Below are positions 1,796-3,963 of a stretch of DNA of 51,874 bases, piece after piece. Where the stretch lies: positions 1-51,874 of the forward strand of contig JAKQEP010000121.1 of NCBI GenBank assembly GCA_029556475.1, written 5' to 3'. Source of the DNA: Candidatus Atribacteria bacterium. GTDB lineage: Bacteria; Atribacterota; Phoenicimicrobiia; Phoenicimicrobiales; Stramentimicrobiaceae. Under the pieces are notes generated by a model. It was given only the letters and a program-made list of their open reading frames with translations. It ran no database searches and was not told where the DNA came from. The position numbers and the translations under genes are program-made. The stretch's first letter is position 1. Each line of letters opens with the position of its first letter.

Positions 1796-2314
1796 ATTAA
1801 AAAGTTTATAATTGGTGTAATGGGTGGATCGCAGTTTGTAAATCCTGATGATGAACAATATGCCTATCAGATTGGGGTAATGATAGCCCGGGAGGGATGG
1901 ATACTATTAAACGGTGGCAGGGCATCAGGTATTATGGAAGCATCTGCTAAGGGTGCTAAAGATAATGGTGGAATAACTATAGGAATATTGCCGGTTGATG
2001 ATGCAGACTGGGCTTCTCAATACATAGATATTCCTATTGTTACCGGTATAGGTATGGCCAGAAACATTATTAATGTATTAAGCAGTGATATGATTGTTGC
2101 CTTGCCGGGGAGTGCAGGAACAATTTCCGAAATAGCCATAGCTTTAAAATATGGTAAAGTGGTAATCTTATTTAGATTTGATGCCGGTGACTGGCTTAAA
2201 CCATTTCAGAGAGAAGGGAAAGTGTATTTTACAAATGAAATAACAGAATTAAGAGCTCTTATAAAAAAGAAATTGGAAGAAATTAGTCACAACAAAAAGA
2301 GGTGTTTATGGTAA
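1796..2314 (+). CDS. SLOG/LOG-like Rossmannoid protein (TIGR00725-type)
   Basis: GVMGGSQFVNPDDE...LNGGRASGIMEASAKGAKDNGGITIGILP...MARNIINVLSSDMIVALPGSAGTISEIAIALKYGK is typical of the family. The ORF track starts at 1820, but in-frame ATT at 1796 after GGAGGGG restores the N-terminal strand (M/I)KKFIIGVMGGS. Confidence 0.7.
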   Translation: MKKFIIGVMGGSQFVNPDDEQYAYQIGVMIAREGWILLNGGRASGIMEASAKGAKDNGGITIGILPVDDADWASQYIDIPIVTGIGMARNIINVLSSDMIVALPGSAGTISEIAIALKYGKVVILFRFDAGDWLKPFQREGKVYFTNEITELRALIKKKLEEISHNKKRCLW

Positions 2315-3963
2315 AACTTTTAATACGGGTGGATGGCTCCTGTATACCTAATCCGGGGAATATGGCAATAGGGGTTGTTATTTACCGTGATGGACAGTTA
2401 TGGAAAAAAATCAATGAAATAATTGGTCAGGGCACCAATAATATTGCAGAATATAGTGCTGTGATAAGAGGTTTGGAAGAAATAAAAGATATTCCTTCAC
2501 ATTCAGTTCAGTTTTATTGTGATAGTCAATTAATCGTAAAACAATTAAATGGCCAGTTTAAGGTAAAGAATAAAAAAATGATTCCACTCTATGAGAGGAT
2601 ACAAGAATTAGTCAAAGAAATTAAAGCCCCTGTCTTTTTTATTTGGAACAGAAGAGAAGATAATCAGATGGCTGATCAGCTAGCCAGAAAATTGCTGCTT
2701 AAAGAGGAGCAGAATAAAAGAGCTCTTGCCTCCCAGGATTTGACAGTAGAAGATAAAGGAGACCATTTTTTAATACAAAATAAACAAAATAAGAAAATAT
2801 ATAGAGTAAACCTTTCCCTTCCGGAATGCGATTGCTATGATTTTGAAAATAATTGCCGGAAATGGAATTTAGAATGCAAACATATTGTAGCTACCCGGAA
2901 ATTTGTGGAGGAGAGAGAAAAACAGAAATCTAACGATAAAGATATTGTTAAAAAAATGAAAGTATTGATATTTAGTAAGATGGTAAAAGCTGAGAAATGG
3001 TCAGAATTATTGGAGAAATACAATCGGTGTGATAACTTGCCCCTGGAGCTTATTTTTCCCCATCCTGACAGTAAAGAATTGAGCAGACAGTTAGCATCTG
3101 TAGAGGTAATAGTGGGAGGAGAACTGGGCGAGTTTGAGCTAAATCAGGCCAAAAAATTGAAATTGTTTCAGATACCTTTTACCGGAGTGGATAAACAGAA
3201 TCTGGAAGTATTTAAGAATTATACTGATGTGACGGTTTGTAATACTCACGGCAATAGCGATGCAGTTTCGGAACAGGCTTTCTCTCTTTTATTAGCCCTG
3301 GCAAAAAACCTGCTAAACAATGACCGGGACCTGCGGCGGGGCATATGGCATGGATTTGTTACCGGTGAACCGGCTATTCAGGTTAAGGGAAAAAATCTGG
3401 CTGTTATTGGTTTGGGTACGATTGGATTGGAAATTACCAAAAGAGCGCTGGCTTTTGGTATGAAAATATATGCCATTAAACAAACCATAAAAAAAGAAGA
3501 AGAATTAGAGCAGAAATACGGTCTAACCTTTTTAGGTACGCCTGAGCAATTAGAATATGTTATTGCTCAATCCGATTTTATAATCATATCCTTACCTTTG
3601 ACCAAAAAGACTGAAAATATAATTGATGACCGAAAATTAGCACTAATGAAAGGAAAGTACCTTATTAATATTGGGCGGGGTAAGGTTATTGATGAAAAAG
3701 CCCTCTATTTACATCTCAAAAATGGTACTTTGGCAGGTGCGGCTATCGATACCTGGTATCAGTATCCTACAAGAGAAATACCGGAGAGATTGCCAAGTCA
3801 ATATCCTTTTCAGGAATTGAATAATATAATAATGTCTCCGCATAATGCCGGTTATACTGATAAATCTATTGAAGGGAACATATTGCAGGTATATGAAAAT
3901 ATTAAAAGAGTGTTTTATGGGGAAGAACCAAAAAACAGGATTGACCTAGAGGAAGGTTATTGA
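2308..3963 (+). CDS. Fusion: RNase HI domain + SWIM zinc finger + D-2-hydroxyacid dehydrogenase
   Basis: RNase H DEDD residues (VDGSCIPNPG, NNIAEYSAVIRGLEE, YCDSQLIVKQ, NQMADQLA); SWIM CxCx(n)CxH (CDCYDFENNCRKWNLECKH); NAD-binding VIGLGTIGLEI, INIGRGKVIDE and SPHNAGYT of D-2-hydroxyacid dehydrogenases. SD AAAGAGG before ATG 2308. Confidence 0.85.
   Translation: MVKLLIRVDGSCIPNPGNMAIGVVIYRDGQLWKKINEIIGQGTNNIAEYSAVIRGLEEIKDIPSHSVQFYCDSQLIVKQLNGQFKVKNKKMIPLYERIQELVKEIKAPVFFIWNRREDNQMADQLARKLLLKEEQNKRALASQDLTVEDKGDHFLIQNKQNKKIYRVNLSLPECDCYDFENNCRKWNLECKHIVATRKFVEEREKQKSNDKDIVKKMKVLIFSKMVKAEKWSELLEKYNRCDNLPLELIFPHPDSKELSRQLASVEVIVGGELGEFELNQAKKLKLFQIPFTGVDKQNLEVFKNYTDVTVCNTHGNSDAVSEQAFSLLLALAKNLLNNDRDLRRGIWHGFVTGEPAIQVKGKNLAVIGLGTIGLEITKRALAFGMKIYAIKQTIKKEEELEQKYGLTFLGTPEQLEYVIAQSDFIIISLPLTKKTENIIDDRKLALMKGKYLINIGRGKVIDEKALYLHLKNGTLAGAAIDTWYQYPTREIPERLPSQYPFQELNNIIMSPHNAGYTDKSIEGNILQVYENIKRVFYGEEPKNRIDLEEGY

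Follow-up and report, generated by a model that had tools for sequence, protein, structure and literature searches.

A real, conserved and old gene fusion joins an RNase HI domain, a SWIM-type zinc-finger motif and a D-2-hydroxyacid dehydrogenase in a single polypeptide in one order of Atribacterota, and we consider it likely that this protein is a clade-specific bifunctional fusion in which two working enzymes are arranged as beads on a string. The gene lies in the window, that is, the whole stretch of 51,874 nucleotides analyzed here, which comes from the genome of an uncultured member of the Atribacterota assembled in 173 contigs. The features of the locus, in window coordinates, are as follows.

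1820-2314, + strand: SLOG cluster-4 (LOG-like) gene that overlaps the fusion gene (PF18306, 2.5e-46), adjacent in most relatives
2298-2304, + strand: Shine-Dalgarno-like AGAGGTG of the fusion gene; a purine-rich stretch precedes the ATG in most homologues
2308-3963, + strand: fusion gene, RNase HI-SWIM-D-2-hydroxyacid dehydrogenase, 551 aa
2308-2697, + strand: RNase HI domain, residues 1-130 (Pfam PF13456/PF00075, alignment)
2788-2907, + strand: SWIM-type zinc-finger motif CxCx13CxH, residues 161-200 (invariant; Pfam SWIM weak)
2908-2955, + strand: junction, residues 201-216, whose length and sequence both vary
2956-2958, + strand: internal ATG, unconserved
2956-3963, + strand: D-2-hydroxyacid dehydrogenase domain, residues 217-551 (PF02826/PF00389, alignment to 2dbq and 2d0i)

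The frame at 2308-3963 starts with ATG and contains no internal stop, in agreement with the single uninterrupted 551-codon frame given in the preliminary description, and it shares 7 nt with the upstream gene. Full-length, stop-free homologues with 51-83% identity are present in 19 of the 24 genomes of the order, namely 8/10 in the window's own family (its own genome included) and 11/14 in the order's second family. Two further genomes (G002 and G008) carry a split version, and the gene is absent from the other three, each of which is 63-76% complete. Because the same in-frame fusion recurs in 19 genomes, it is no assembly accident. In a genome of another family, one contig (G045:C201; loci L022 and L063) carries the order's LOG gene together with the beginning of the fusion gene (73-83% identity), and this contig is probably a binning contaminant.

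Atribacterota families outside the order either have an RNase H that lacks SWIM, or no RNase H was detected in them. A scan of 85,462 species genomes with two peptide patterns, both taken from the RNase H half, gave 169 loci, and the best 80 of these include no fusion outside Atribacterota. Spread by plasmids or phages was rejected: plasmids show no fusion, the one place covering more than 80% of P0001 matches at 23% and carries dehydrogenase and VOC annotations, and no phage match extends to the SWIM part.

At residues 6-128, Pfam detects RVT_3 (PF13456, 1.4e-17, 64.2 bits against a cut-off of 21.6) and RNase_H (PF00075, 4.8e-11, 43.4 bits against a cut-off of 25.8). The catalytic residues D9, E48, D72, and D123 are invariant in all 19 full-length homologues, as are the SWIM ligands C174, C176, C190, and H192, which form the motif CDC-x13-CKH between the RNase H and the dehydrogenase. 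Both the four RNase H acidic motifs and the CxC..CxH motif of the preliminary description are thereby borne out. The Pfam SWIM family (PF04434) has no match in the window protein and matches 9/19 homologues at E<=1 (best 0.017), and the stretch at the same position in two archaeal RNase H relatives scores above the Pfam SWIM cut-off. No genome of the order has more than one RNase HI by PF13456, with the same result by PF00075, and it is always the fusion protein; because the genomes are incomplete, its standing as sole RNase HI rests on the agreement of about 20 genomes. RNase HII is encoded by its own separate gene in most genomes of the order.

The C-terminal part matches 2-Hacid_dh_C (1.2e-43) and 2-Hacid_dh at residues 219-545, with PF02826 and PF00389 both above cut-off, and Foldseek aligns it to 2HADH structures with E of about 1e-26 and places it with glyoxylate/hydroxypyruvate reductases. 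The best fold match is 9a5q, a TkrA-RecF cross-linking model, which is a possible tie of the dehydrogenase fold to DNA repair; our literature search found no paper on 9a5q, and we therefore do not rely on this tie. The GxGxxG motif (residues 368-373; G368, G370, and G373), R457, and H512 are invariant in 19/19 homologues. The full dehydrogenase with GxGxxG, Arg, and His that had been described earlier is thus present in those respects, but the third catalytic residue, a Glu that the description omitted, is replaced by Tyr486 (window 3763-3765). This Tyr is invariant in 19/19 homologues within the motif DTWYxYP, and in the alignment the reference Glu of the Pyrococcus horikoshii glyoxylate reductase is the final E of its DVFEEEP stretch. 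The Arg-Glu-His triad is therefore not intact in the fusion dehydrogenase. In the available part of the 2HADH classification (PMC6303947), Gln takes this position in formate dehydrogenases, other triad replacements occur, SERA type IIIK retains activity after loss of the Glu, and Tyr in place of Glu is absent. Since recognized members in that part have other Glu replacements, an intact triad is not strictly defining for the 2HADH superfamily, and we class the fusion dehydrogenase as a member of it without assigning it to any characterized subfamily.

In a tree of 52 dehydrogenases, a branch with 98/90 support separates all sequences read as Tyr-bearing from all those read as Glu-bearing. The Tyr group spans Thermoproteota, two alphaproteobacterial plasmid enzymes, and an unfused protein from another Atribacterota family (G024, L023), and its motif D[TV]W[WY]xYP was seen in L161, L162, L163-L172, L263-L266, L270-L271, and L023. 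The two alphaproteobacterial plasmid Tyr-dehydrogenases adjoin L-idonate 5-dehydrogenase genes, and the motif is near-identical in L161 and L162. Because the Tyr is present in stand-alone members of this group, it predates the fusion, and it probably marks an active dehydrogenase subfamily. The residues at the end of beta-2 are mostly K-R, which suggests NADP(H) rather than NAD(H) as coenzyme. We found no description of a Tyr-for-Glu 2HADH subfamily in the literature library searched, which covers only a minority of subscription-journal papers.

We calculated dN/dS between related genomes by the Nei-Gojobori method, in which some pairs are dS-saturated and short stretches are noisy. The RNase H gave 0.02-0.10, the SWIM stretch 0.00-0.15, and the dehydrogenase 0.10-0.15, and residues 201-216 gave about 0.2-1.1. 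As judged from these sequence comparisons, the RNase H, the SWIM motif, and the dehydrogenase are under purifying selection and the junction drifts. The AlphaFold model has a mean pLDDT of 80.7 and a pTM of 0.59; confidence is good over the RNase H, the SWIM region, and a large part of the dehydrogenase, with pLDDT falling below 50 at residues 209-214, 336-356, and 483-494. The dN/dS pattern and the confidence of the model together indicate that each part is kept while the junction is free.

A separate dehydrogenase made from the internal start was rejected. The preliminary description had placed an internal ATG without a good Shine-Dalgarno sequence at about 2958; the lack of a Shine-Dalgarno sequence holds, but the codon occupies 2956-2958. 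Its use as a separate start is not conserved, since it reads ATT or ATA in four homologues (L006, L007, L008, and L018). A linker frame change splits the halves into overlapping genes with a purine-rich site nearby in both G002 and G008: the stop codon in G002 overlaps a TTG start (TTGA) downstream of a purine-rich stretch, and an ATG in G008 lies 11 nt after AGGAG. Because the linker frame changes leave overlapping genes, the joint is dispensable in these two genomes. Both split copies nest among fused relatives in the dehydrogenase tree, so they read as secondary fissions or else as local sequence errors. Separate encoding of the halves in related genomes had been named beforehand as grounds for rejecting the fusion; it does occur in 2/24 genomes, but these copies nest inside fused lineages and so do not count against the reality of the fusion.

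The LOG-like gene is probably co-transcribed with the fusion gene. It was not found in four genomes that carry the fusion (G006, G007, G011, and G013), and LOG is therefore not obligatory. Genes for fructose-bisphosphate aldolase, phosphofructokinase, and DnaE (named by eye) are conserved further downstream. On the minus strand of the window, two genes at 171-770 and 776-1561 have no significant Pfam family, and the product of the latter is kept upstream of the LOG/fusion gene in most relatives with long enough contigs.

In the RNase H tree, the domains from the fusion proteins group together as the sister clade of Thermoproteota RNases H (SH-aLRT 89), with support that is moderate because this is a quick tree of 146 columns. 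Stand-alone archaeal RNase HI-SWIM proteins of 210-211 aa, with PF13456 and PF04434, are encoded in L121 (7983-8618) and L100 (570-1202); we found no description of them in the same literature library, with its limited coverage of subscription journals. By eye, the gene in L121 is flanked by UvrD/Rep-type helicase-like and Cas10-like genes. One archaeal sublineage includes four genomes (G251, G268, G298, and G342) in which an RNase HI gene is followed directly by a Tyr-dehydrogenase gene on the same strand, and in G268 and G298 LOG precedes the RNase HI, the same gene order as in Atribacterota. The RNase HI is adjacent in 4/18 genomes of this archaeal order with a close homologue of the Tyr-dehydrogenase, as counted with flanks of at most 1.5 kb and some contigs cut. 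Within the archaeal RNase HI-dehydrogenase cluster, a gene for a small coiled-coil-looking protein immediately precedes the RNase HI in L194 (7705-8055), L146 (1920-2267), and L150 (1926-2294). Among about 60 RNase H loci outside Thermoproteota, with flanks up to 8 kb, no LOG was found, and a dehydrogenase was present only in L064, where it has the canonical Glu and lies on the other strand about 2 kb away. The gene arrangement in the archaeal sublineage hints at a link of a functional or historical kind. The trees give no support to a recent acquisition of the entire cluster from this sublineage, since Atribacterota fall outside it in both. Because neither tree nests Atribacterota there and adjacency is limited to 4/18 genomes, the two arrangements may also be of independent origin.

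We propose that the N-terminal RNase HI, the sole type I enzyme detected, would cleave the RNA strand of RNA:DNA hybrids, and that the SWIM motif would most likely aid binding of nucleic acid or substrate, like the hybrid-binding domains of other RNases H. The C-terminal part is a predicted NAD(P)H-dependent 2-ketoacid/2-hydroxyacid oxidoreductase, which probably has a small-molecule substrate of its own and probably dimerizes through its coenzyme domain. A frame change in the junction would have merged two neighboring genes, and the fusion may since have been retained through co-expression, mutual stabilization, or drift, with the two halves presumably working independently. Of the two ideas in the preliminary description, the bifunctional fusion of neighboring genes holds up, in view of the conserved frame, the free junction, the fission in two relatives, and the adjacent separate genes in four archaea. 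The joint itself could matter, as the fusion persists over two families and fission occurs in two genomes only. That RNase HI and Tyr-dehydrogenase genes lie side by side in four archaea, two of them with LOG as well, likewise hints that more than chance, namely a functional link, connects them.

The other idea, an RNase H gated by redox state or NAD(H), finds no support in our analysis; the domains of the nearest precedent, RNase HI-CobC, are dissociable (PMC7466739), and the beta-2 residues suggest NADP(H). In its broader form, coenzyme binding or reduction would alter the dimerization or shape of the dehydrogenase and switch the nuclease in a CtBP-like manner, which we regard as improbable. 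The parts do stay together across two families, RNase HI and Tyr-dehydrogenase are neighbors in four archaea, and the available part of the 2HADH classification notes that assembly of CtBP, a dehydrogenase-like co-repressor, is controlled by NAD(H), so that the fold can act as a module of assembly that senses a coenzyme (PMC6303947). However, the junction is variable, unconstrained, and disordered in the model, split genes are tolerated in two lineages, and most Tyr-dehydrogenases do not lie near an RNase H; the RNase HI-CobC-like pattern and the natural fission argue against obligatory cross-talk. A specific version, in which the dehydrogenase responds to the NADP(H)/2-ketoacid state and, through dimerization, regulates the one RNase HI of the order, is a distinctly long shot. 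If it were true, R-loop and primer removal would respond to redox state, and the LOG-RNase HI-Tyr-dehydrogenase neighborhood would mark the same functional unit in archaea.

With Tyr in place of Glu, the dehydrogenase could be weakly active or inactive, and it might then be a catalytically dead scaffold that serves mainly as a dimerization or stabilizing platform for the RNase H-SWIM part. The invariance of the Tyr fits this, and dehydrogenases of the D-2-hydroxyacid family are usually dimers. We nevertheless consider a dead scaffold unlikely: Arg, His, and GxGxxG never vary among the homologues, purifying selection acts on the domain, the Tyr is common to stand-alone relatives, two of them beside a sugar-acid dehydrogenase gene, and activity without the Glu is on record for SERA type IIIK in the part of the classification cited above. 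There is a very slim chance that the LOG-like protein, the RNase HI, and the dehydrogenase share a nucleotide- or coenzyme-related process and that the fusion marks this link. Their genes keep the same order in most Atribacterota relatives and, as separate genes, in the archaea G268 and G298, but four fusion-bearing genomes have no LOG detected, only 4/18 Tyr-dehydrogenase genomes of the archaeal order show the arrangement, the Atribacterota proteins are not nested in the archaeal sublineage, and a substrate common to the proteins is not known. That two genes were joined by misassembly or a frameshift has virtually no chance of being right. Separate frames in two relatives and an A-rich run at the junction point that way, but the fusion is in frame in 19 genomes, down to 51% identity, and the internal start codon is lost in four homologues; for the clade, the artefact reading is refuted.

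The order thus offers a case in which the only RNase HI found is coupled to a redox enzyme, and, together with the natural split alleles, this makes it testable whether such fusions are adaptive or neutral. The finding also points to the Tyr-for-Glu 2HADH subfamily and the archaeal RNase HI-SWIM proteins. Fusions of RNase HI with metabolic enzymes that are unrelated to one another recur: the partner is the CobC phosphatase in actinobacteria, an MBL-type hydrolase in one Chloroflexi genome (by eye), and the dehydrogenase here. A catalogued or characterized RNase HI-SWIM-dehydrogenase protein was not found in the libraries and literature searched, which cover only a minority of subscription-journal papers, and nothing relevant emerged there on RNase HI combined with SWIM, on dehydrogenase fusions, or on Atribacteria; within that scope, the earlier statement that no described enzyme joins the three parts is upheld.

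The closest known counterpart in design is RNase HI-CobC (Rv2228c/MSMEG_4305/SCO2299; PRK07238), which likewise has an N-terminal RNase HI and a C-terminal metabolic enzyme, is confined to one bacterial branch, and has a variable linker with both domains under purifying selection. In that family, selection is stronger on the RNase H and the linker is highly variable, removing CobC from MSMEG_4305 costs hardly any function, so that the domains are functionally dissociable in vivo, and the authors consider the fusion most probably fixed by drift (PMC7466739). The protein described here differs in having a dehydrogenase instead of a phosphatase at the C terminus and a SWIM motif between the domains. 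It is not a member of the RNase HI-CobC family: PRK07238 scores 97 bits (cut-off 326) over the RNase H part only, and the C-terminal CobC/acid phosphatase domain is absent. Unlike M. smegmatis, which has two RNase HI, these genomes revealed no second one. Two other long frames were seen among the loci: a 469-aa frame from 5029 onward in L118 (Chloroflexi) combines, by eye, RNase HI with a PhnP-like metallo-beta-lactamase-fold hydrolase, and a 388-aa RNase HI frame from 7998 onward in L112 (Actinomycetota) has the size expected of RNase HI-CobC.

The archaeal proteins of L100 and L121 match the fusion in the position of their SWIM zinc finger, after RNase HI, but they stop after the SWIM part, without a dehydrogenase, and their RNase H falls within the Thermoproteota group. 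The dehydrogenase resembles enzymes of the glyoxylate/hydroxypyruvate reductase type (PDB 2dbq, 2d0i, and 6bii), its top matches by sequence and by fold, in both domains, GxGxxG, and the catalytic Arg and His, and differs from them in Tyr486 at the Glu position, a longer loop before the catalytic His, and its fusion to RNase H. It shares the Tyr with the D[TV]W[WY]xYP subfamily of Thermoproteota, alphaproteobacterial plasmids, and G024, whose members elsewhere, unlike the fusion protein, are unfused.
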